Origin: Rubripirellula sp.
Lineage (GTDB): Bacteria > Planctomycetota > Planctomycetia > Pirellulales > Pirellulaceae
DNA length: 52,010 nt
Assembly: GCA_022425745.1 (NCBI GenBank)
Contig: JAKMEW010000107.1
Coordinates: 1-52,010 of the forward strand
Reading direction: 5' to 3'
The notes beneath the pieces are model-generated. The model searched no databases and was not told the origin of the DNA. It saw nothing but the letters and a program-made list of their open reading frames with translations. The position numbers were made by a program, and so were the translations under genes. Of the stretch, positions 29,866-51,625 are shown piece by piece (positions within the stretch are counted from its first letter, which is position 1; each line of letters opens with the position of its first letter).

Positions 29866-30720
29866 TCAGCCCTGAACAATACGATTAGAAAGCGTTCCAA
29901 TCCCAGAAATGGAGATATGAACCATATCATCAGGCAGTAGGGTGAAGTCGTTGGATGGAACAATCCCCGTTCCGGTCATGAGAAAAGCTCCGTTGGGGAA
30001 ATGGTTGTCGCGTCCTAGCCAGTGAACAAGATCGTCAAAGGTTCGCGCCATCTGTGCTGCTGAGGTTTGTTGATCGAAGACGACTTCGCCCGTTCGCTCA
30101 ATTTTGAGATCCACCGCAATTTCAGCTACTGGAGGCAATTGTGAGTAAAGGCGAATGACGGGGCCAAGGCCGGCGCATTGGTCGTAACATTTCGCCTGAG
30201 GCAGATAGAGCGGATTTTCACCTTCAATATCTCGGGAGCTCATGTCATTACCCACCGTGAGACCCACGATCCGGAGGGATGGGGAAAGCACCAAGGTGAC
30301 CTCAGGTTCAGGAACATTCCAAGTGGCATCCTTTCGGATTCTCAGGGATTCCTTATGTCCACGCACTCGATTTGGAGTCGCCTTGAAGAAAATTTCCGGT
30401 CGATCCGCTTGGTAGACGCGGTCGTAGCAGGAGGCCGCTGCTTCAGACTCTTCCATTCTGGCGGTCTGGCTACGCTTGTAAGTGACTCCCGCCGCCCATA
30501 CCTCTTGATCATCAATGGGTGCCAGCCAACGAGTCGCCTCATTGATGGGGACCGGAGCATCCTGATCCAAGGCTTCGGCGGCAGCAATTGGATCCTCCGC
30601 AGCCAGTAGGTCGGCCAGCGTTCGGATGCTGCTGGTGGTTTTAAGGGGAATTATTTTGTCGGACTCGACGCGGCCGATACGAACCGTGTCGGTATGATCT
30701 AAAAATTTTGTTACTTTCAT
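29866..30720 (-). CDS. FAH-family sugar-acid dehydratase-like protein (AraD1 type)
   Basis: The 284-residue protein has a fumarylacetoacetate-hydrolase fold. The metal-binding acidic residues are in VPEPEVTLVL (E-x-E) and the Asp of GNDMSSRDIEGENPLY. AAGVTYKRSQTAR and KCYDQCAGLGPVI are typical of the subgroup that acts on 2-keto-3-deoxy-arabonate and related acids. The adjacent ketoglutaric semialdehyde dehydrogenase supports that role. The open frame runs to 30762, but ATG 30720 (MKVTKFLDH) gives the normal family start. The divergent FG-GAP gene then begins only 40 bases away, so the promoters must be compact or overlap. Confidence 0.78.
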   Translation of the reverse strand: MKVTKFLDHTDTVRIGRVESDKIIPLKTTSSIRTLADLLAAEDPIAAAEALDQDAPVPINEATRWLAPIDDQEVWAAGVTYKRSQTARMEESEAAASCYDRVYQADRPEIFFKATPNRVRGHKESLRIRKDATWNVPEPEVTLVLSPSLRIVGLTVGNDMSSRDIEGENPLYLPQAKCYDQCAGLGPVIRLYSQLPPVAEIAVDLKIERTGEVVFDQQTSAAQMARTFDDLVHWLGRDNHFPNGAFLMTGTGIVPSNDFTLLPDDMVHISISGIGTLSNRIVQG

Positions 30721-30760
30721 GGGCACAGGATATCGGATATTGGCCACTACGGGGAGCGAC

Positions 30761-33700
30761 ATGAGTCAATCAGAATCACCATCGCCGGATTCTACCGAGA
30801 ATGTTGAGGATCTTACCAAGTCACCGCTTTTCAAAAAGCTCTCGATTCTGCTTACCTTGGCAGTCTTGGGGATTTTCGTTGTTACTCAGTTATGGAGAAC
30901 CTCTGCTGAGAAAGAGGTGGATCCCGCACTCCAGAATCGTCTTGAGCTCACTCGCAGCGCGCTGGCCGCCACCGAGAATCTGGAGCCACTAGAGGCTGAT
31001 GCGGCTTGGCAACAGTTGTTCCAAGATGATTCCAGCAATCGATCGGTTGCCATGAATCGAGCAATCAATCGACTTCTTCGCGTCGACTCGTTGGCTTCCC
31101 AGGCCACCAATGCATCACTCAGTGATGACGAAAAGAAGATGGCTAGGGCTCAATTGCCCGATGCAATTGCTTCAGCAAGGCAAGCGATTGAGGATTTTCA
31201 GAAGGTTTCCAACGAGGAAGTTCTTTCGCTTTGGTTCAACGCAAGAATCGACCTCCACGAGGCTTCCCTACTTCCGGGATCCATGACCAAATCGCTGCGG
31301 CGGGAAGTCTATCAGAAGTTATCCAAGGAGCTGTCGGGTCCAATAGGTGAGCAGCCCACCAGCCGGGTTCTCGGTGGTGTGTTGATTCAGGTGATTGAAT
31401 TGCTTGAAGATCCGATTGATGGCCTGCCTGCGGAGCTGCTGCAAGATGCTAGTCGCGCTGTGGGACAACTTTCCGAGCAGCATGCTGACAATCTCTTTTT
31501 TGCGTTGAGAGCAGCTAGGCTTGGAATTGCAGTAGAAAGTTTGGAGGCGGTGAGGGCAGTACAGAGGGCCAGTGAGCTAGCCAAGGCGATTGAGCCATCC
31601 ATTCGTCGCGAGACCGAACCGATCGGCGTTACTCCGGACGAACTTGTCGCTCAAATCATCTCCGCGATTGAGTCGGGTAATTGGTCCGAGGCAGATAATC
31701 GAATGTTGCTTTGGTTCAATGTTCTCAATAGCACCGAGATTGTGAAAACTGACCGCCGTCGGGCCAATCCACACCCTCTAGATATCCTCAACTTCGATTC
31801 CTTGCGTGAGCTTTCGGCAGAGGTGGTACGGCAGGCACCGATTGATCCGATGAGCACTCTTGTCTCCTTCACCGAAGGCATCTTCTTGGATTCTGAAGAG
31901 TTTGTTGCAATGACGGTAATCGATGTTGATCTTGATTTGATTCCCGATCTTGTGACGCTAGATGAAAATAATCGTCTGGAGATTTGGCGAGGCGACGGGA
32001 TTGGAGGCCTGAGGTCCGAATCCGAATTGCAGTTGCCGATCGAATGCGAAGGGCTGATTGCAGCCGATCTTTTTTTGGTTGATAGCAGCAATCCGGCTAG
32101 GCTAAAGGCGACTCAAGGGGGTTCCGCTACCGGGGAGGGTGATTATTCAGCTGCGACGCGCCACGACACCCTGCTGAATCTGCTTGTTTACGGCAAAGGA
32201 GGCGTTCGAGTAGTGCAGGTTGATGGAAGGAGCGATACGCCTGATGCCGATCGCTTGATGCTGGTCGAGACGCCGACGGGTTTGGAGGAGGTTGACGAGG
32301 TGTTGTGCGTGATAGCGGGTGACTTGGAAGCTGATGGCGACTTGGACTTAGTCTTTTCGACTCAGGGCGATGGTGTTCGTTTGTTCGTCAACCGCGGGAA
32401 TCGAACCTTCTTTGAACTCGCTAACCCGATCAGTGGATTCGCATCTGATGATCCTCCGTCTGATTTTGCCATCGCAGATATTGATCGCGATCTCGATCTC
32501 GATCTTGTCACGGTGCATCGCCAAAGTGGGAAGGTAGGGCTAATCGAAAACCTTCTCCATCTTCAATTCCGAGGAAGGTATCTCGAAGAAATTGAATCAA
32601 TTGCTGGAGCCAATTCTGTTTCGGTCGAAGATATCGATGGCAATGTCTCGTGGGATCTGATTGTTGGCGGAACCGACGCTGCGGCGATCGTGTTCTCGCA
32701 GACGGCAGATGCGGGCGCGTGGGAAGTGGATCAAGTTGTGCGATCGAACCACGCAGCCGATCAGATTCTTGTGGACGACTTCGACAACGATTCTTGGGTT
32801 GACGTCATGGTCAAGACGGATGCAAGTATTGAACTGTGTCGTTTAGGTCCCTGGGGGTTCTCGGATTGGATCGGTGTTGATGTTGATCTCGAAGAGAAAC
32901 TTCAGCCCGGTTCTTGTTGGGTCGCTGCTGATTTCGATCGTGACGGTGCGATTGATCTTGTTGGCCATCCTCTGGCGAGTCTTACCGTTCTGTTAAATCA
33001 GAGTTTGAATTTAGGTCATCATCTTGACGTGCGGTTCAAGGGAATCGATGACAATGCAAGTGGAAGGGTTAACCATTACGCGATAGGCAGCGTTCTTGAA
33101 CTTCGCTTTGGTCCGCATTACCGCGCGAAGATTGTGGATTCACCTTTGACGCACTTCGGTCTCGGGCAGTACATCGCAGCAGGTAGTTTGCGTGCAATTT
33201 TGCCGAACGGATTAACACAGACAACTCGTAATCCCCGAGTTGATTCATTGGTTGAAGAAGAGCAAACCCTGAAAGGGTCATGTCCGTACTTGTACGCGTG
33301 GGACGGTGAGAAATTCGTCTTCAAGACAGATTGTTTGTGGGCGGCGCCACTTGGATTGCAGGTTGCTCACGGCGTGGTGGCAAAGGATCGTCCGTGGGAA
33401 TATCTCAAGATTGATGGCGAAGATATCGCACCACGTGGGGACCACTACGAATTTCGGATCACTGAAGAGTTATGGGAGGTCGCTTACTTTGATGAGATCG
33501 CCATGTCAGTGGTGGATCATCCTGCTGATGTTGAAGTTTGGACGAATGAAAAGGTTGGACCCGGTAATATTGCTACTCCAACAACCTTTGCTTTTGCCTC
33601 AGAGGATCGTCACCCTTTAGTGCGAGCACTGGACACGAGTGAGCGAGAAATCACGGAAGAACTTGAAGGGATTGATCAGAACTATGTCCAAGCGTTCGAT

Positions 33701-34606
33701 CAAAGGTTGCGGCAGGGGTTGTGCCCACCGCACTGGATCGATCTCGATTTCGGGTCTGATTGGACCACTCAATTGAATTCTTCGAACGGAGCGGTCTATC
33801 TTGTGCTAACCGGTTGGATCATGCCGACCGATACCTCTCTGAACATCCAAATTGATCAGAATCCTGACCTTGGACCACTGGAGTTCCCATCCGTTTGGGT
33901 GCCCGATTCTCAGGTGGAGGGTGGTTGGAAAAAAGCGTTACCCTACATGGGTTTTCCAGGTGGTAAAACCAAAACCATCGTTGTTGAAGTTACCGACATC
34001 CTGAATCTTCAGGATCCAAGATTTCGTGTTCGAACCTCTGCTCAGATCTATTGGGATCATGCCGAGTTAGTAGTGCAGGAGCAGCCTGCGCCTTTTAGAG
34101 AGCAAGTGTTGGGATTGAGAAGTGCTGAAGTAACTTTCCATGGTTTTTCACAGCGTTTGAGGGAGCATGAAACACATCCCGAAACCTACGATTACCAAAA
34201 CGCCAGTATTGATCCAAGGTGGCCACCGCTTCGCGGTGAATTGACACGGCGAGGACCATGTACCGAGGTCATCCAACGCTGGGATGACCGAATGGTTGTC
34301 ATCGGAGCGGGTGATGAAATTATCGTACGTTTCGAAATGCCCGCTGATGAACCTCCTTCAGGTTGGAAGCGAGATTTCATCATCCACAGTGTTGGATGGG
34401 ATAAGGACGCCGATCTCAATACGCTCGCGGGTCAGTCAATCGGTCCATTGCCGTATCGAGGCATGCAGCAGTACCCGCCTGCGGAGGGTGTTGAGGGGAG
34501 GGCTGAAACGGTCAATCAGCTCAATCGTGATCATTTATCGCGATCGCAATCATTTAGGTCATTTTGGTATCGCAGCAACGAAACTGAGCCGATTTCTCAG
34601 CAATAG
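30761..34606 (+). CDS. Membrane-anchored FG-GAP/VCBS repeat protein with ASPIC-like and unknown C-terminal domains
   Basis: The 1281-residue product has one N-terminal membrane helix (about 27-46, LSILLTLAVLGIFVVTQLW). A helical region, possibly TPR-like, covers about 50-360. FG-GAP/VCBS repeats with Ca-binding D-x-D-x-D motifs follow from about 395 to 745 (DVDLDLIPDL, DLEADGDLDLV, DIDRDLDLDLV, DFDNDSWVDVM, DFDRDGAIDLV). An ASPIC/UnbV-like segment follows (IGSVLELRFG ... HFGLGQY). The last about 450 residues start CPYLYAWDGEKFVFKTD and match nothing I can name. ATG 30761 is preceded by a strong GGGGAG site; the frame's first ATG at 30719 lacks one. It is first of a three-gene cluster with a pentahaem cytochrome and another FG-GAP protein. 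Confidence 0.85.
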   Translation: MSQSESPSPDSTENVEDLTKSPLFKKLSILLTLAVLGIFVVTQLWRTSAEKEVDPALQNRLELTRSALAATENLEPLEADAAWQQLFQDDSSNRSVAMNRAINRLLRVDSLASQATNASLSDDEKKMARAQLPDAIASARQAIEDFQKVSNEEVLSLWFNARIDLHEASLLPGSMTKSLRREVYQKLSKELSGPIGEQPTSRVLGGVLIQVIELLEDPIDGLPAELLQDASRAVGQLSEQHADNLFFALRAARLGIAVESLEAVRAVQRASELAKAIEPSIRRETEPIGVTPDELVAQIISAIESGNWSEADNRMLLWFNVLNSTEIVKTDRRRANPHPLDILNFDSLRELSAEVVRQAPIDPMSTLVSFTEGIFLDSEEFVAMTVIDVDLDLIPDLVTLDENNRLEIWRGDGIGGLRSESELQLPIECEGLIAADLFLVDSSNPARLKATQGGSATGEGDYSAATRHDTLLNLLVYGKGGVRVVQVDGRSDTPDADRLMLVETPTGLEEVDEVLCVIAGDLEADGDLDLVFSTQGDGVRLFVNRGNRTFFELANPISGFASDDPPSDFAIADIDRDLDLDLVTVHRQSGKVGLIENLLHLQFRGRYLEEIESIAGANSVSVEDIDGNVSWDLIVGGTDAAAIVFSQTADAGAWEVDQVVRSNHAADQILVDDFDNDSWVDVMVKTDASIELCRLGPWGFSDWIGVDVDLEEKLQPGSCWVAADFDRDGAIDLVGHPLASLTVLLNQSLNLGHHLDVRFKGIDDNASGRVNHYAIGSVLELRFGPHYRAKIVDSPLTHFGLGQYIAAGSLRAILPNGLTQTTRNPRVDSLVEEEQTLKGSCPYLYAWDGEKFVFKTDCLWAAPLGLQVAHGVVAKDRPWEYLKIDGEDIAPRGDHYEFRITEELWEVAYFDEIAMSVVDHPADVEVWTNEKVGPGNIATPTTFAFASEDRHPLVRALDTSEREITEELEGIDQNYVQAFDQRLRQGLCPPHWIDLDFGSDWTTQLNSSNGAVYLVLTGWIMPTDTSLNIQIDQNPDLGPLEFPSVWVPDSQVEGGWKKALPYMGFPGGKTKTIVVEVTDILNLQDPRFRVRTSAQIYWDHAELVVQEQPAPFREQVLGLRSAEVTFHGFSQRLREHETHPETYDYQNASIDPRWPPLRGELTRRGPCTEVIQRWDDRMVVIGAGDEIIVRFEMPADEPPSGWKRDFIIHSVGWDKDADLNTLAGQSIGPLPYRGMQQYPPAEGVEGRAETVNQLNRDHLSRSQSFRSFWYRSNETEPISQQ

Positions 34607-34851
34607 GCGTGTCGAATTGGTGAATCGCTCTTGTTGCCGTGTGCTGCGAGGCGATGGAGTTATCCAAAACGCGATTTCGGCGGGTTTTAAGAAGGGTCGA
34701 CAGGTTTTCTGTGAACAGACAATCTGTCGAGTTCGTCTTCATAGGTGGAGCGATTGAGGTAGCGCGCCACACTGATCGTCTGTCGCTGGAGTGTTTCAGG
34801 GCGGTGCGGTGATCGACTAACTGTCTTTGACCTCTTCCGTTGAAGTGAACC

Positions 34852-37752
34852 GTGTCCGCTATTGAAACAAGTCAAGCTAATCGACCCGAGTCTCCAAACG
34901 AGGAACGTAAGAAACCGGTTCGCCCCGTCACGCCCCGTCTTAGGAAAGTCCTTTACCTGGTCCTCACCCTCTTTGGCGTCTTATCAGCTAACGGTCTCTA
35001 TCTGACGAGTGTGACTTGGTTGCAATACTTCACGGGGGAAGTATTCGAGACACATTTTTATCAACTGATGTTTCTGGCGCATCTCGGACTCGGTTTATTG
35101 CTCATCGCTCCAGTGGTGGCATTTGGATTCATCCACATGTGGCGTAGCAAGGATCGAAGGAACCGTCGCGCGGTCAAAATTGGCTATGCTCTTCTCGGAA
35201 TTGCATTACTGATTTTGATTAGCGGCTTGTTGCTAACGCGAATTGGCTCATTCGCGGTTGTGAATCCGACGACTCGACGAGTTTTCTATTGGATGCATCT
35301 TTTAGCGCCGCTTGGAGCTGTGTGGCTTTACTGGTTGCATCGTTTGGTCGGCCCAAGAATCAAGTGGCACATTGGCCGCCGAGTCGGTATGGCAATTGCC
35401 TGTTTCGTTGCCCTGATGGTTGGTTTTCAAGCATCTGATCCGTCTCGAAGTGGAGACGAAGGTCCCCGAGATGGAAAACGTTATTTTGAGCCGTCGCTGG
35501 CGAAAACTTCTTCCGGGAAATTCATCGCGGCAGAGACGCTGATGAACGACGACTATTGCCTCAAGTGCCACGGTGATATCTACAATTCAGCGATCCATAG
35601 CGCTCACAAGCTGAGCAGTTTCAATAATCCAGCTTATCGAGCATCGGTGCGAGAGACCCGCCGAGTGGCGCAGGAACGCGCCGGTAGTGTTCAATCCTCG
35701 AGATGGTGCGCGGGTTGCCATGACCCGGTACCTTTCTTCTCGGGTAGGTTTGATGATCCTAACTACGACGATGTGAATGACCCAACGGCACATGCCGGCA
35801 TCAGTTGCTCGGTTTGCCATTCAATTCAATCAGTAGACAGTCATGTTGGTAATGCAGATTACACGATTGATGAGCCGAAGCATTATCCGTTTGCTTACAG
35901 TGATAATCCCGTCCTCTCAGGCTTGAACTCTTTGATGGTCAAAGCTAAGCCATCGTTCCATAAGCACGAGATGCTAAAGCCGTTCCATAAGACCGCTGAG
36001 TTTTGCTCCACATGCCACAAGGTATCACTTCCGAAAGAAGTGACTGAATACAAGGAGTTCTTGCGTGGGCAAAATCATTACGACAGCTACCTGCTCAGTG
36101 GTGTCTCAGGCCATGGCGCGAGGAGTTTTTACTATCCTGAGGTTGCACAGCAGAACTGTAACGAATGTCATATGCCGTCGATGGCTAGTAGCGACCTAGG
36201 TTCCAGATACATGGAAAAAATCGGGGAACTCGGCGTTCACTCGCATGCTTTCCCGAGTGCTAACACAGCACTAGCCCATTGGATGGGTGATCAAGAAAGC
36301 GTCGAGAGGCATCGGGAGTACCTGAAAGGCACTTTGCGAGTCGATTTGTTTGGCTTGCGAAAAGGTGGTTCCGTTGATGGGCCTCTGCGACCGGCCATTG
36401 AACAGTCAGCAGAGGTTGAGGCGGGGGAAACCTACCTGATCGAGACAGTGCTTCGAACGATGACACTCGGCCATCATTTTACGCAGGGCACAACCGATTC
36501 AAATCAAATTTGGATCGAGATAACGGCTAAGCAGGGCGAACGGTTACTTGGAGCAAGTGGGCATCGAGACGAACGAGAGCGAGTGGATTCATGGTCCCAT
36601 TTTGTAAATACCTTCATGCTGGATAGGAATGGTGAAAGAATCAATAGGCGAAACGCTCAGAATATTTTCACTCCACTCTACAGTCATCAGATACCGCCCG
36701 GCGCAGGGCAAACCGTTCATTACAGGTTGGAGATTCCTGAGCAAGACAGAACTCCGATCACGGTGACTGCTCGTTTGCTGTATCGAAAATTTGACACCGA
36801 ATATCTTGACTATATCCGAAGAGATCGAGATCCCTCGGTTGATCCGCTTTCACTAGGCGAGCCGGGTGACCCTAATGATTTACCGATTGTTGAGATCGCA
36901 ACGGATGAAATCCAGTTGATAATTGGCCCTGAAGGATCGACCGAAGTAAAGGGCGATGTAGTCCAATCAAACGAAGGTAGCGATGACTCGGAGATGGTGA
37001 CGGGCGCGGAAGCTGGATCTATGGTGGCAAACTCGCCACCCTTGTGGCAACGCTGGAATGATTACGGCATAGGCATGCTGCTCAAGGGGAAAGCAGAATT
37101 GAAGCAGGCAGCTGAGGCCTTCGCGGAAGTTGAGCAATTGGGTCGCTATGATGGTCCGATGAATTTAGCTCGGGTGCAGTTCGCAGAGGGTGATTTGGAT
37201 GCGGCGACCGAATCGCTAAAAAGAGCAGCTAAAATGGATCCACCACCTCCCTCGTGGACTCATAGTTGGCTCAGTGGTGTCGTCAATCGCCAGCAAGGAA
37301 ACTTGCGTGAGGCGGCCGACTCTCTTGCAGCAGTTTTGCAGACCAAAGTGCCGGATCGTGGGTTCGACTTCTCTCTTGATTACGTGGTTAGAAATGAGCT
37401 TGGTTTGACGCTCGCTGATTTGGCTCAACAGGCAGAGGTTCAAGGTAAAGAGGCTGATTATCTCGACTACCTCAATCAGGCCAAGCGAGAATTCGAGACG
37501 GTGCTCGAGACGGATTCTGAGAACGTTACCGCTCACGCCAACTTGGTTGAAATTTACTCTCTTTTGGGAGACCAAGAGAAAGAATCATTCCATCGAGAGT
37601 TGCATTCACGGTATAAGCCCGACGACAATGCTGCCGAGGTAGCTAGACCGGCGGCTCGCCGTCGATATCCAGCTGCGAACCACGCCGCAGAAGCACTCGT
37701 GATTTACGATCTGCATCAAAAATCGTCAATGACCGCCAAACCGACTGAATAG
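34852..37752 (+). CDS. Membrane pentahaem cytochrome c with TPR domain
   Basis: The 966-residue product joins three parts. Residues about 30-195 hold four or five membrane helices with several histidines (FLAHLGLG, FGFIHMW, FYWMHLLAP, LYWLHRLVG), resembling a b-type cytochrome. A periplasmic region has five CxxCH haem-c sites at 236 (CLKCH), 286 (CAGCH), 319 (CSVCH), 385 (CSTCH) and 436 (CNECH), spaced like cytochrome c554-type proteins. Residues about 720-920 are TPR-like (AEAFAEVEQLGRYDGPMNLA, DLDAATESLKRAAKMDP). The inferred role is electron transfer across or at the membrane; donor and acceptor are unknown. The start is GTG 34852 without a strong ribosome site. The next gene starts 11 bp after its stop. 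Confidence 0.87.
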   Translation: MSAIETSQANRPESPNEERKKPVRPVTPRLRKVLYLVLTLFGVLSANGLYLTSVTWLQYFTGEVFETHFYQLMFLAHLGLGLLLIAPVVAFGFIHMWRSKDRRNRRAVKIGYALLGIALLILISGLLLTRIGSFAVVNPTTRRVFYWMHLLAPLGAVWLYWLHRLVGPRIKWHIGRRVGMAIACFVALMVGFQASDPSRSGDEGPRDGKRYFEPSLAKTSSGKFIAAETLMNDDYCLKCHGDIYNSAIHSAHKLSSFNNPAYRASVRETRRVAQERAGSVQSSRWCAGCHDPVPFFSGRFDDPNYDDVNDPTAHAGISCSVCHSIQSVDSHVGNADYTIDEPKHYPFAYSDNPVLSGLNSLMVKAKPSFHKHEMLKPFHKTAEFCSTCHKVSLPKEVTEYKEFLRGQNHYDSYLLSGVSGHGARSFYYPEVAQQNCNECHMPSMASSDLGSRYMEKIGELGVHSHAFPSANTALAHWMGDQESVERHREYLKGTLRVDLFGLRKGGSVDGPLRPAIEQSAEVEAGETYLIETVLRTMTLGHHFTQGTTDSNQIWIEITAKQGERLLGASGHRDERERVDSWSHFVNTFMLDRNGERINRRNAQNIFTPLYSHQIPPGAGQTVHYRLEIPEQDRTPITVTARLLYRKFDTEYLDYIRRDRDPSVDPLSLGEPGDPNDLPIVEIATDEIQLIIGPEGSTEVKGDVVQSNEGSDDSEMVTGAEAGSMVANSPPLWQRWNDYGIGMLLKGKAELKQAAEAFAEVEQLGRYDGPMNLARVQFAEGDLDAATESLKRAAKMDPPPPSWTHSWLSGVVNRQQGNLREAADSLAAVLQTKVPDRGFDFSLDYVVRNELGLTLADLAQQAEVQGKEADYLDYLNQAKREFETVLETDSENVTAHANLVEIYSLLGDQEKESFHRELHSRYKPDDNAAEVARPAARRRYPAANHAAEALVIYDLHQKSSMTAKPTE

Positions 37753-37763
37753 ATAATCAACTC

Positions 37764-39635
37764 ATGGCAGAACCTAATCTCGAGAATGATGATCTCGATC
37801 AGGATATTGAAAATGACGCGGTGATCGGCTCTGCCCTTCGAGCATCCCTGCTCGTCTTTGTGATCTTGGCATTCCCGGTGATTCTGATTTTGCTTTACCT
37901 GGTGATTCAGAAAGAAGAGGAACAGGCGACTGAGACCGACGTGACATTGCCGGAAGTGCGGCAGACCAATGAGGAGCCGATACCCTCTTTACCCTTTGTG
38001 GATGTTACCAAAGAGAGTGGGATTCGTTTTACTCACGAATCGGGAAAGTATGGGGAGAAGCTACTGCCGGAAACCATGGGAAGTGGCGTTGCTGTTCTTG
38101 ATTACAACCAAGATGGGCACCTCGATCTTTTCTTCGTCAACTCCTGTCATTGGGAGTGGGACGTGCGGAATCAAACGCCTTCACCTTGCCAGCTATATCG
38201 TGGTGATGGGAATTTTCAGTTTGAAAACGTATCAGAGGAAGTGGGTCTGACCGAGAGCTTTTACGGTATGGGTGTTGCCGTTGGTGACTATGACAACGAC
38301 GGTGATAGCGATCTGTACATCACTGCGGTTGGTGAAAATCGCCTGCTGCGAAATGATGACGGTAAATTTGTCAACGTCACCGAAGATGCGGGCGTTGCGG
38401 GTTCCCAAGATCTTTGGGGGACCAGCTGTGGATTTGTCGACTATGACAACGACGGACTATTGGATCTTTTTGTTTGTAACTACGTTAGTTGGAGTAAAGA
38501 GAATGACCTAAGTCAGAACTTTACTCTCGATGGAGAGACTCGAGCGTACGGCCCGCCAAAGGCCTTCGCTGGATCTTTCTCGTTACTGTACAAGAACCTC
38601 GGGAGTGGCAAATTCGAGGATGTGTCAGAGTCGAGTGGGATTCAAGTTCGTAATGAAACCACCAATGTGCCTCTCGGAAAGGCCATGGGGATTGCACCCG
38701 TCGATTTTAACCGCGATGGCTGGATGGACTTTGTCATTGCCAATGACACGGTGCGGAATTTCTTGTTCGAGAATAATAAGGACGGGACTTTCTCTGAGAT
38801 CGGTCGCTTGGTTGGTATTGCCTTTGATCGATCTGGCAACGCTCGCGGAGCGATGGGTATTGATACCGCTATGTTCAGAGGGCGGGAGACGTTGGCGATT
38901 GGTATTGGTAACTTTGCTAACGAAGCAAGTGCTCTCTACATGGCCAAAAGCGGCAGGCGACAATTTGTTGACGCTGCCATGGCCACCGGATTTGGTCCGC
39001 CAACAAGGCAGGGATTAACCTTTGGCTTGTTTTTCTTTGATGTCGATCTTGACGGTCGCCTGGATCTTCTCGGTGCTAATGGTCACTTAGAAGAAGAGAT
39101 TTCCAAAACACAGCAGTCACAGCAATACGCTCAACCACCTCAGTTGTTCTGGAACGCGGGGCGAGAAGCTGCGAGTGAATTGGTTGCCGTTGGAGGTGAG
39201 AGCGTCGGTGATGAGTTCTTGGAGCCAATTGTTGGTCGCGGTGCCGCCTATGGTGACTTCGATGAAGATGGTGATCAGGATGTAGTTATGTCCGTCAGTC
39301 ACGGTCGACCTAGGCTCTTTCGCAATGATCAGACGCTCGCCAATCACTGGGTGCGTGTTCAGTTGCAGGGAGTCTCTTGTAACCGGGATGCCATCGGCGC
39401 TTCAGTCGAGTTGAGTGATGGTCAGCAAGTGATGGCTCGATCGATCATGCCGACCAAGAGTTATTTGAGCCAGTGTCAGAAAAGTATCACGTTCGGCTTA
39501 GGTCAAGAAACGCCAGAGAAGCTTAGCTACACTGTGATCTGGCCAGGGGGAGATCGCGAAGAATTCACAAGCGATGTGATCGACCAAGTCGTTATGTTTC
39601 GCCAAGGTGAGGGATCGGATCTTGTTTCTCCGTAA
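37764..39635 (+). CDS. Membrane-anchored FG-GAP / ASPIC-UnbV (CRTAC1-like) protein
   Basis: The 623-residue protein has an N-terminal membrane helix (about 24-48, LRASLLVFVILAFPVILILLY), then FG-GAP repeats with D-x-D/N-x-D-G-x-x-D motifs: DYNQDGHLDLFFVNS, DYDNDGDSDLYI, DYDNDGLLDLFVCNY, DFNRDGWMDFVIAND, DVDLDGRLDLLGANG and DFDEDGDQDVVMS. The C-terminal ASPIC/UnbV domain is clear (NHWVRVQLQGVSCNRDAIGASVE ... SYTVIWPGGDREEF). The repeats form a calcium-stabilised beta-propeller outside the cytoplasm. It lies 11 bp after the cytochrome-TPR gene and is almost certainly cotranscribed with it. It resembles the propeller part of the first gene of the cluster. Biochemical function is unknown. Confidence 0.9.
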   Translation: MAEPNLENDDLDQDIENDAVIGSALRASLLVFVILAFPVILILLYLVIQKEEEQATETDVTLPEVRQTNEEPIPSLPFVDVTKESGIRFTHESGKYGEKLLPETMGSGVAVLDYNQDGHLDLFFVNSCHWEWDVRNQTPSPCQLYRGDGNFQFENVSEEVGLTESFYGMGVAVGDYDNDGDSDLYITAVGENRLLRNDDGKFVNVTEDAGVAGSQDLWGTSCGFVDYDNDGLLDLFVCNYVSWSKENDLSQNFTLDGETRAYGPPKAFAGSFSLLYKNLGSGKFEDVSESSGIQVRNETTNVPLGKAMGIAPVDFNRDGWMDFVIANDTVRNFLFENNKDGTFSEIGRLVGIAFDRSGNARGAMGIDTAMFRGRETLAIGIGNFANEASALYMAKSGRRQFVDAAMATGFGPPTRQGLTFGLFFFDVDLDGRLDLLGANGHLEEEISKTQQSQQYAQPPQLFWNAGREAASELVAVGGESVGDEFLEPIVGRGAAYGDFDEDGDQDVVMSVSHGRPRLFRNDQTLANHWVRVQLQGVSCNRDAIGASVELSDGQQVMARSIMPTKSYLSQCQKSITFGLGQETPEKLSYTVIWPGGDREEFTSDVIDQVVMFRQGEGSDLVSP

Positions 39636-48420: not shown

Positions 48421-48586
48421 TGGAGGTCCGAAAGAATCAGCTATGCTTGAAGGGTGACTGATGCCGCTCTACTTTACTGCTACTCGGAGACCGAGCACAA
48501 CGCGTTCGCTTGTGTCTGTTCACCTGAGTAGTCTCGGAGAACGTTTCTTTTTGTCTTTTCTTATTCTTACTTACCGCCGACTTTCC

Positions 48587-51500
48587 ATGCTTAAGTTTTT
48601 CTCGTCTCTGCCGAGATTCCCGTACGGCTTATTCATGACAGCAACGGTGCTGGTCGTTTCGGGATCCAGTTTCCACGCGTGCTTTGCTGGCGAACCCGCC
48701 GCTGATTTTCTCAAAAGGTTGCGAGCGGCGGAATACTTTGACACTGCCATTACCTATTTGGACAGACTGGACCAATACGCAGGTGTTGAGCCAACGATGC
48801 TTGATGCGATCGCGTTGGAGAAGGCACAGACATTCATTGATGCTGCTGGTGCGACACGCAACGCAGAGAATCGAGATGAATTGTTGCGCAACGCGGAGAC
48901 CGCATTAACCGAATTTCTGAAGCAATCATCTCACCCCAGAGTTCCTGAGGCGAGAATGCAGCTTGGAAGACTTCAGATGGTGCGTGGCTTGCAGTTGATG
49001 GCGACAAAGCCGGATGAAGCAAAGCGAAGTATGGCCCGTGATTCTTTTATGGCGGCAGCAGGAACCTTTGACCTGATTGTTAATCAGCTGCGTGAGACTT
49101 TGAAGGACATGCAGGGTGCTAAGATCGATGCGGATCAGAATCCTGAACAGGCTGCACTTCGGGATCAGTACCGCGGTGAGTACTTGCAGGCGATGAGTAG
49201 TTCTGGTGATGCCCGATACGAGGCTGCCATGACTCATGCAGATCCTGCTAAGGACGGTAAGTCTTTGCTCGAAGAGTCACTTGCTACCTACATGGACCTT
49301 AGCGAGAAGTACGACTCCTACGTTCAGGGTGCGTTGGCGATGGTGCAGCGAGCCAAGGTGCAAAAGACGCTCGGGATGACAGAGCAAGCCTTGGACAGTT
49401 ACATGCGGATGCTTGAACAGCCAGAAGCCGAGCCCCTTCGAGTCGCAAAGTTTGAGGCGGGTGCTGGCATGATCGATTTGATGCTTTTGGAAGATCCTCC
49501 GCGTTATCAATCGGCGATCGATCGCGGGGAGCAGCTCAGCGAAGGTTCAAGGCCCAACGAAAGAAACTTGCCAGCATTGCAAGGCTTGCGATTGGAATTG
49601 GCAAAAGCCTATCTCGCCAAATCAAAAGATGGTGAAAAGCAGAAACCGGCGGATGCCAAGCGAGCCGAGTCCGATGGCCGTCAGCTGTTGATCCGTGTGA
49701 GCAAGGTTCCCGGTGAGTTTGCTGAAAAAGCCAACGCCATGCTATCTGACATGGGAATCAATCTTTCAGAAGTTGCTGATCTGCCGACTGCCGAAGATCC
49801 TGAAAGTCTCGTCTCTGCACTGGATGACGCGAGAGAGTTGCTATCTGTGTTGGACCAACTTGAGCAATCCATTGAACTTCTCAAGGGGCAGGCCAGTCCT
49901 TCGCAGGAGACGAAAGATCAGATCGCCCAAAATGAAAAGCAGCTTGCAGATTCACGCTCGCTCGCCATTCAATTATTACGGCGGGGATTGTCGCTCGTTT
50001 CCATCGACAGCGATAACGAGATGGTCAATCAAGCACGGCAGATGCTCGCCTACCTGCTCTACCAGCAAAAACAGTATCGAGATGCGTCGGTGGTGGGTTT
50101 GTTTTTAGCGTTGAATGCTCCCAGTTCAGATGCCGGGCTTCGAGGTGGTTTGGTTGCCTTGAATGCACTGCAGTTGCAACTTTCGGAGGACCCCGAGAAT
50201 CAACTGGCGCTTTCGCGGCTAGAAGAGCTAGGTGCGTTTCTGACAAAAACTTGGCCGGACGAACCCGATGCAGCGGCCGCGCAGGGTGTATTGATCAAAC
50301 TTGCTTTGCGTGCAGACCGATGGGGGGACGCTGGGAAGTTGATTGCCGCGATGCCTGCCGGTGGTGAAAAGGCTTCATTTCAGAGGCTCATGGGGCAACT
50401 GCTTTGGAATAAATCAATTCAAACTCGCCAGGATGGTGATGAGGAGGCAGCCGGTCGTTATCTCGATGATGCAGCAAATGAACTTCAGCAAGGTCTTGCT
50501 GGTGTCGCAGCAGGTTTGGCTGACGGTGAGGCGATGAAGGCGGCTCTAGTACTCGCAAAGGTTGCTTTGAAGCAGGGGCGTATCCAAGTTGCTTACGACA
50601 CACTTGAGAACGAGACATATGGACCGATTTCCCTTCTGGAACGCCAAGGCGCACCAGACGACAGTTTTCCGGCGGATTTATATAGTGTGCAGCTCCAGGT
50701 GCTTGTTCAGCAGATGACCGCTGAGGGAGAAGATACGACCGCACTGCTGAACGAAGCGACCGCCGTGATGGAGAAGCTTCGGGAAAGCATTCAAGGCCCA
50801 AATTCACAACAGGAATTGACTCGGATCTTTATCCTAATGGCGAGGGATATCCGAGATCAGTTGCAGGGTGCAGGACCCGCGCAAAAGGCAAAGCTGATTG
50901 ACGCATTTCGGGTCTTTTTGGACAGGATTACTGGAACCACGAAAGATGTTGCCACGCTTCAGTGGGTCGGGCAGACTCTGATGGACCTTGCCGAAGCATC
51001 AATGACTGCGAGCGGTCAGCAGGCAAAAGCACAGACCAAGAGTCTTCTTGAATCAGCAAGTGCGACCTTCCAAAGCCTAAAAGATCAGGAAGGTGGAGAC
51101 ACGTTAGTTGTCAGGTTTCAGGAAGGTAAGGCTCTTCGATTGTTGGGTGAATACTCCAAATCGCTCAAGGTCTTTGAGTCCTTGTTGAAGGAAAAAGCAT
51201 CCATGCTTGATGCTCAGGTTGAAGCGGCACTTGCTTACGAGCAGTGGGCGGCAACCGCGCCCCCCGCGGTTCAGTCACGTGTTTACCAAGCGGCTTTGGC
51301 TGGGGCGCGACCGGATGCGAACAAGAAAAACGTGATTTGGGGTTGGGGTAAAATCTCTCAGGAAACCAGTCGTAACCCTCGGTTCAAAGCACGGTTCTTT
51401 GAAGCAAGGTATCACGTTGCACTCTGCAGATTCTTGGCGGGCAAGGCTGAAGGAAATGCAGCGAATAAGAAGTTGCTCATGGAAAAGTCTGTCACTGACA

Positions 51501-51625
51501 TCACACGCGTTGCTGCTCTCTATCCGGACTTGGGGGGAGTTGAGCAGAAGAACCAATTTGACGCTCTGTTGAAGTTGATTCAAAAAGAACTTGGACAACC
51601 GCAGGTCGGCTTGGCTACCAAATAG
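48587..51625 (+). CDS. Large secreted TPR-like repeat protein
   Basis: The 1012-residue product has a signal peptide (FMTATVLVVSGSSFHACFAGEP) and is then almost entirely alpha-helical, with TPR-like repeats. Examples are FLKRLRAAEYFDTAITYLDRL, LLEESLATYMDLSEKYDSYV, RAKVQKTLGMTEQALDSYM and VRFQEGKALRLLGEYSKSLKVFE. Such proteins act as periplasmic or envelope scaffolds; no enzyme domain is visible. The frame is open from 48461, but ATG 48587 (MLKFFSSLP) gives a normal signal peptide. It diverges from the two unknown membrane proteins. A second secreted protein starts 125 bases after its stop, in the same direction. Its partner and role are unknown. Confidence 0.82.
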   Translation: MLKFFSSLPRFPYGLFMTATVLVVSGSSFHACFAGEPAADFLKRLRAAEYFDTAITYLDRLDQYAGVEPTMLDAIALEKAQTFIDAAGATRNAENRDELLRNAETALTEFLKQSSHPRVPEARMQLGRLQMVRGLQLMATKPDEAKRSMARDSFMAAAGTFDLIVNQLRETLKDMQGAKIDADQNPEQAALRDQYRGEYLQAMSSSGDARYEAAMTHADPAKDGKSLLEESLATYMDLSEKYDSYVQGALAMVQRAKVQKTLGMTEQALDSYMRMLEQPEAEPLRVAKFEAGAGMIDLMLLEDPPRYQSAIDRGEQLSEGSRPNERNLPALQGLRLELAKAYLAKSKDGEKQKPADAKRAESDGRQLLIRVSKVPGEFAEKANAMLSDMGINLSEVADLPTAEDPESLVSALDDARELLSVLDQLEQSIELLKGQASPSQETKDQIAQNEKQLADSRSLAIQLLRRGLSLVSIDSDNEMVNQARQMLAYLLYQQKQYRDASVVGLFLALNAPSSDAGLRGGLVALNALQLQLSEDPENQLALSRLEELGAFLTKTWPDEPDAAAAQGVLIKLALRADRWGDAGKLIAAMPAGGEKASFQRLMGQLLWNKSIQTRQDGDEEAAGRYLDDAANELQQGLAGVAAGLADGEAMKAALVLAKVALKQGRIQVAYDTLENETYGPISLLERQGAPDDSFPADLYSVQLQVLVQQMTAEGEDTTALLNEATAVMEKLRESIQGPNSQQELTRIFILMARDIRDQLQGAGPAQKAKLIDAFRVFLDRITGTTKDVATLQWVGQTLMDLAEASMTASGQQAKAQTKSLLESASATFQSLKDQEGGDTLVVRFQEGKALRLLGEYSKSLKVFESLLKEKASMLDAQVEAALAYEQWAATAPPAVQSRVYQAALAGARPDANKKNVIWGWGKISQETSRNPRFKARFFEARYHVALCRFLAGKAEGNAANKKLLMEKSVTDITRVAALYPDLGGVEQKNQFDALLKLIQKELGQPQVGLATK

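Follow-up and report, generated by a model that had tools for sequence, protein, structure and literature searches.

A co-inherited three-gene locus of Planctomycetota encoding a candidate membrane electron-transfer complex with a pentahaem cytochrome and two anchored FG-GAP proteins

Do three long neighbouring genes of a planctomycete, two for propeller proteins and one for a cytochrome, form one system, and what would that system do? The genes lie in a stretch of 52,010 nucleotides from Rubripirellula sp. (assembly GCA_022425745.1, contig JAKMEW010000107.1, forward strand, positions 1 to 52,010), and this whole stretch is called the window here. Gene A (30761-34606, 1281 amino acids, aa) encodes a single-pass anchored FG-GAP protein, gene B (34852-37752, 966 aa) a protein joining a putative membrane module of di-haem-b type, a pentahaem module and a TPR tail, and gene C (37764-39635, 623 aa) a single-pass anchored FG-GAP and ASPIC/UnbV protein of the CRTAC1 type. 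All three are on the plus strand, and 11 bp (37753-37763) separate B from C, so the coordinates confirm the one-strand cluster and the spacing reported in the initial annotation. We found that the trio is nearly always kept or lost together, which points to an electron-transfer complex not described before. With a probability of roughly 0.55, A, B and C work together as a single complex of the cytoplasmic membrane that faces the periplasm, in which electrons would pass between quinone, two haems b, five haems c and a partner, with the propellers anchored beside the cytochrome.

Conserved co-occurrence of the three genes, which the initial annotation had proposed to look for, was found among 60 relatives (own genome included): 35 contained all three, 21 none and 4 a mixed set. 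Two mixed genomes (G006 and G010) were without A and had B beside a contig edge, one (G007, 77% complete) was without B and had C at base 196 of a contig, and one (G026) had A only; B was thus present in 37 of the 60. A sample of 36 genomes of the class, family and order included and own genome left out, was divided into 24 with all three and 12 with none; it shares two genomes with the 60 relatives. Thresholds were 1e-10 for A and B and 1e-100 for C, the stricter value being used because of paralogues. In the phylum, B relatives were found in 102 of 292 sampled genomes including our own; among the other 291, A was found in 111, B in 101 and both in 88, and when B scored above 400 bits (60 of the 291), A was present in 59 and C, at the strict threshold, in 57. 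Since at most two candidates for B, five for A and four for C were scored per genome, misses are possible in these phylum counts. Presence of all three switches within a genus (G308 against G235 and G304; G136 against G151) and within a family (G052 against G326); in the own genus, G021 differs from nearly all members in trio presence, and G009 (66% complete) also shows none. Common descent accounts for part of this joint inheritance. The trio is inherited as a unit, though A is often distant from B and C.

The order of the genes was compared in two sets of loci, whose counts are not independent because some loci are in both (L054 and L141 are the same contig); B matches below 200 bits were excluded, as were loci whose flanks were too short. 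In the first set (L031-L139), C lay close downstream of B on the same strand in 71 of 75 loci, or in 72 when counting L137, one of the four exceptions, where the C part lies behind B in a different frame. The second set (L140-L219) was drawn from a named genome collection in which at least 582 stretches, not genomes, encode a B relative, and represents the best 80 of these; C followed B closely on the same strand in 63 of 73. The ten named loci without an adjoining C come from metagenome-assembled genomes (MAGs) titled Planctomyces, Planctomycetaceae, Fuerstiella, Planctomycetota and Kuenenia, and these ten genomes together with G032 each carried one clear C orthologue elsewhere (11/11; 48-61% identity, the next by score at most 38%). 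Gene A was found directly upstream of B in most of the own genus and in scattered other genomes, downstream of C in a few loci, elsewhere in G003 and G014, and far from B and C in G214 (0.42 versus 1.31 Mb on one contig). That the genes might not be neighbours in relatives, as the initial annotation had considered, is therefore not the case for B and C and is half true for A, which is often elsewhere yet co-inherited. Could A and C be unrelated neighbours of a stand-alone cytochrome B? The distance of A from B and C in many genomes would agree with this, and chance adjacency is expected from the abundance of FG-GAP/ASPIC genes, but all three are jointly present or absent even when unlinked, with switches inside a genus or family, and we regard such an explanation as very improbable.

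Only one match to B was found in the own 5.06 Mb draft genome. B carriers among the best 80 of the named collection included strains of Rhodopirellula europaea, R. sallentina, R. maiorica, Stieleria, Neorhodopirellula, Roseiconus and Roseimaritima as well as Gimesia MAGs, and the closest B among the matches listed was that of an uncultured Rubripirellula MAG (92% identity). No B relative was found on viral contigs with search patterns made from one protein, which detect close relatives only.

The membrane part of B is predicted to comprise five helices (residues 28-194, 34933-35433, plus strand), at residues 28-61, 68-99, 105-128, 139-164 and 172-194, versus four in a plain hydropathy scan. 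Helix 2 carries H77 (35080-35082) and H95 (35134-35136), and helix 4 carries H149 (35296-35298) and H163 (35338-35340). In an alignment of 81 B rows, H77 was kept in 80 of 80 covering rows, H95 in 80 of 80 (one row has a gap), and H149 and H163 in 81 of 81 each; in a wider alignment of 67 rows, window included, the four were found in 66, 65, 67 and 66 rows, the exceptions being L066, a truncated row, and L046, a divergent second copy. The initial annotation had named a lack of paired histidines as fatal to its proposal, and at the sequence level the pairs are there. Helices 2 and 4 would be parallel if the N terminus is inside, and H77/H149 (9-10 residues from the periplasmic helix end) and H95/H163 (24-27 residues) would therefore lie at like depths; with each of the two helices carrying a histidine at both depths, as judged from the helix ends and with L046 as exception, the arrangement is that of di-haem b proteins. 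The N terminus and the loops 2-3 and 4-5 are arginine/lysine-rich and lie on the side opposite the haem c domain. Since basic loops mark the cytoplasmic side (positive-inside rule), the haem c domain would be outside. The membrane part of B thus probably holds two haem b, between helices 2 and 4. When 26 of the 81 long B proteins were scanned against Pfam in this part, PF01292 matched weakly in two (best E 0.063). The fold comparison scarcely probed the membrane part, as TPR matches filled the list; MccSep and cytochromes b were absent from the fold-match rows shown, which excludes nothing with a list so filled.

Five CxxCH motifs follow in B, as the initial annotation had seen, at residues 236 (CLKCH, 35557-35571), 286 (CAGCH, 35707-35721), 319 (CSVCH, 35806-35820), 385 (CSTCH, 36004-36018) and 436 (CNECH, 36157-36171), all on the plus strand. 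The cysteines and the histidine of all five were kept in 67 of 67 rows, window included, so these motifs are not due to chance. They belong to a c552/ExtKL-like pentahaem module with a C-terminal beta domain (residues 226-689, 35527-36918, plus strand), whose predicted model was aligned with cytochrome c552 of Thermochromatium tepidum (5ze8) over 345 of 385 residues (VIA-align Z 14.9, root-mean-square deviation 3.8). By sequence the likeness to 5ze8 was weak (E 0.0033), and there was a weak sequence match to MccSep too. The ExtKL model NF040886 was matched by all 28 B members scanned, out of 81 long B (best E 4.3e-10); the B of the window reached 22.2 bits against an equivalog cut-off of 250, indicating that it is not ExtKL proper. 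The selenocysteine, or its cysteine counterpart, outside the haem motifs that is a trait of ExtKL was not found in B: apart from the motif cysteines, B contains a single cysteine, C184 in helix 5, which 10% of rows share. With five motifs in one domain and the modelled fold, B probably belongs to the pentahaem c552/ExtKL family (PHC) in the broad sense. The TPR tail described earlier (residues 731-945, 37042-37686, plus strand) was also recovered, by TPR_19 (28.1 bits, Pfam cut-off 25) and by a structural match of Z 17.7.

A shorter form of B, which lacks the TPR and shares about 30% identity, was found at 13 scanned loci (L049, L106, L114, L116, L117, L118, L232, L235, L236, L238, L240, L241 and L243; L233, split over two frames, was left out). 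The four membrane histidines were present in 13 of 13 short forms, and so were H252, H370, H465 and H541. The first haem motif was CX4CH in 12 of the 13, and in four of the five short forms within the 67-row alignment. A C-type gene was found behind the short-form B in 13 of 13, and in L236 there was an A in front as well.

The haem ligands bear on whether B only carries electrons. H252, H370, H465 and H541 are the only non-motif histidines of the haem part present in all 67 rows. Position 409 is histidine in 81 of 81 closer long forms, glutamate in four distant long forms (L100, L101, L104 and L112) and glutamine in 13 of 13 short forms; because it varies in this way, the distal histidines common to all forms are four for five haems. 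B might then be a terminal enzyme, in which one haem without a fixed sixth ligand turns over a small periplasmic molecule with electrons from quinone, and A and C gate or bind the substrate. Both the four invariant histidines and the change of residue 409 with the form would suit such an enzyme, and PMC11976967 counts small and large pentahaem cytochromes among potentially catalytic ones, with one or more five-coordinate haems. His409 or another residue could nevertheless close the site in long forms, and neighbour clustering found no conserved enzyme gene pointing to a substrate, so that we think a terminal enzyme unlikely.

How does B compare with described cytochromes? According to PMC11976967, ExtKL and cytochromes of cable bacteria form one pentahaem family, likened to c552; like its members (T. 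tepidum c552, Geobacter ExtKL, MccSep and the cable-bacteria PHCs), B has a beta domain, immunoglobulin-like in the description of that source, after its five haem c motifs. We infer the membership of MccSep from its weak sequence match. In contrast to this family, the chain of B also includes a membrane module and a TPR tail, B has other gene partners, and its haem part has no cysteine outside the motifs. In Geobacter, ExtKL is clustered with a b-type cytochrome (ExtP) and a Rieske protein (ExtO), as given in PMC5877670; the ext cluster thus resembles B in placing a pentahaem cytochrome together with an inner-membrane b-type cytochrome, but uses separate genes, a porin and other multihaem partners, and the portion of its gene list examined contains no FG-GAP protein. 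Hydrazine-synthase-like clusters of clades I-III, in PMC12758564, have a CRTAC1 (FG-GAP) gene adjoining haem-enzyme genes, as in the trio; they differ in encoding proteins of the hydrazine synthase (HZS) alpha and beta-gamma types.

Two membrane-anchored propeller proteins flank B, as first described: FG-GAP exceeded its cut-off in both A and C, and each has one N-terminal helix. No CxxCH motif was found in A or in C. The helix of C (residues 30-48, 37851-37907, plus strand) has a hydropathy of 3.27, and of the 62 C proteins of the named loci, 61 had a hydrophobic helix at the N terminus in a crude scan. C scored 117.9 bits for FG-GAP and 44.8 bits for ASPIC/UnbV (PF07593, 39390-39590, plus strand; cut-off 23.4) and carries six DxDxDG-like sites. 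It is like CRTAC1 and other FG-GAP-ASPIC proteins in passing both Pfam cut-offs, and differs from them by its N-terminal membrane helix and by joint inheritance with a multihaem cytochrome.

In A, the N-terminal helix (residues 23-41, 30827-30883, plus strand) has a hydropathy of 2.22, and the same crude scan found such a helix in 15 of 19 A proteins of the named loci. The whole protein scored 50 bits for FG-GAP (PF13517, Pfam cut-off 26.9), best over residues 521-583 (32321-32509, plus strand), and 17.4 bits for ASPIC/UnbV, below the Pfam cut-off of 23.4. Its conserved C-terminal domain (33308-34582, plus strand) belongs to no Pfam family; in a scan of 23 members, ASPIC was matched at the front edge in 19, and otherwise the best E was 0.16. 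This region gave no PDB sequence match and no Foldseek match at E 0.001. A second structural look revealed a beta-sandwich resembling galactose-binding and CBM domains (about 33599-34087, plus strand), with carbohydrate-binding, discoidin-like and other sandwiches among its matches (Z up to 9.0); on a predicted model, this fold is too common and the Z too middling for a ligand to be inferred.

In the proposed complex, five helices would anchor B, and helices 2 and 4 would enclose two haem b, one towards either side of the membrane. Electrons would move between the quinone pool and this haem b pair, and the five haem c in the c552/ExtKL-like module would connect the pair, in one direction or the other, with a partner in the periplasm. 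The single helices of C and A would each position an FG-GAP propeller next to the cytochrome, with the TPR tail of B as a likely docking surface. The membrane electron-transfer complex with propeller partners suggested in the initial annotation is in this respect partly supported by the data. The gene order, domains, haem motifs, conserved histidines and joint inheritance were observed directly and the pentahaem fold was predicted; the topology, the haem b, the link to quinone, the physical complex and the role of the propellers are what these features suggest.

Several observations weigh against this complex. The membrane part of the B in the window matched no Pfam family over cut-off and no PDB sequence, and because of this it is the histidines that speak for haem b. 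L046 (6091-9408), the second B copy of genome G044 with 43% identity, is without H95, and its histidine in helix 4 is shifted by one residue; judged by sequence, this form perhaps has one haem b fewer, which would support pairing of H95 with H163. Among loci with 4.5 kb of upstream sequence, A immediately preceded B in only 17 of 63 of the first set and 15 of 55 named ones, and in the phylum sample (n=291) 23 genomes had A without B and 13 had B without A. The joint-inheritance counts and the Fisher tests on the phylum sample ignore kinship. The own genome has 15 ASPIC matches, and FG-GAP/ASPIC paralogues are many. Finally, PF00033 cytochrome b or NrfD was present in 60 of the 60 relatives, so the unit is not the sole candidate quinol oxidase.

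Like cytochrome bc1 and alternative complex III, the proposed unit would join the quinone pool to periplasmic haem c; unlike them, A, B and C have neither PF00033 nor NrfD among their Pfam matches, and such proteins are present besides. That replacing complex III is the sole function of B was rejected, because PF00033 or NrfD is present in addition in every one of the 60 relatives. Of the 22 genomes of the own genus (G000-G021), 6 had a PF00033 cytochrome b and 21 had NrfD, a pattern that would suit a genus in which alternative complex III is usual.

A role outside respiration was also considered, in which the unit would feed or drain electrons when the envelope is built or remodelled, and might serve, for instance, other FG-GAP/multihaem pairs of the genome. 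TPR and propeller domains act as scaffolds, and further ASPIC and multihaem genes lie near each other on contigs C187, C386 and C285 of the own genome; no link between those pairs and A, B and C was found, however, and a purely envelope role appears quite unlikely to us.

The other haem and propeller loci of the genome have their own composition. Contig C386 (L220, L221) contains an array of six FG-GAP/ASPIC proteins with open frames of 935-1080 aa, one cut at the stretch end, and a separate multihaem cytochrome gene about 2.6 kb from the array; the one array protein scanned (L220:9821-12958) had TPR too. On contig C187 (L222:410-7696), a multihaem cytochrome (477 aa) adjoins a TPR-FG-GAP-ASPIC protein (1045 aa), and a protein that looks sulfatase-like by eye is encoded nearby on the opposite strand. 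Contig C285 (L223:163-5628) encodes a 625-aa fusion of cytochrome C554-type motifs with TPR, divergent from a TPR-FG-GAP-ASPIC protein (1048 aa), and is thus another case of a haem-TPR fusion beside a propeller gene.

Around the trio, neighbour clustering, in which small clusters were not inspected singly, revealed no conserved neighbours other than A and C once the own genus and its closest relatives are set aside. The pyrB/pyrC neighbours were found in the own genus, and the fumarylacetoacetate hydrolase (FAH) and aldehyde dehydrogenase neighbours in the own genus and one near genus (L067). Gene B starts with GTG. The longest frame of A begins at 30719, yet homologue alignments begin at 30761. 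The listed starts of A and of the divergent FAH-like gene overlap by 2 bases (window 30720-30762), and homologues suggest a start 42 bases further in for the FAH-like gene. A scan for promoters and terminators gave a signal no higher than in shuffled sequences. Elsewhere in the window, a reading frame of 1054 aa (48461-51625) had no Pfam match over cut-off and a weak TPR match only.

We found no literature on the trio by title and abstract start, many subscription papers being outside this coverage. The earlier view that the composition is unlike characterised systems therefore stands for the trio as a whole, absent from the literature found, and does not stand for the haem c half of B, whose predicted fold is a known one; the finding is stronger than first described in its joint inheritance and less novel in that half. 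More tentatively, and somewhat short of even odds, we might speculate that the locus encodes a planctomycete redox complex not described before, linked to quinone and serving respiration or the envelope. A new di-haem b domain, a c552/ExtKL-type pentahaem module and TPR in one chain would in that case be accompanied by two anchored propellers, one with a new conserved C-terminal domain, and the sister form, with CX4CH and with glutamine replacing the fifth distal histidine, would be a catalytic variant.

To our knowledge, few descriptions exist of electron transport in planctomycetes other than the anammox group. The trio offers a concrete target in this field, being three genes that travel together and that are carried also by strains of Rhodopirellula, Stieleria, Neorhodopirellula and Roseiconus, and it offers a redox partner to test for the FG-GAP/ASPIC proteins, which are numerous in the own genome.

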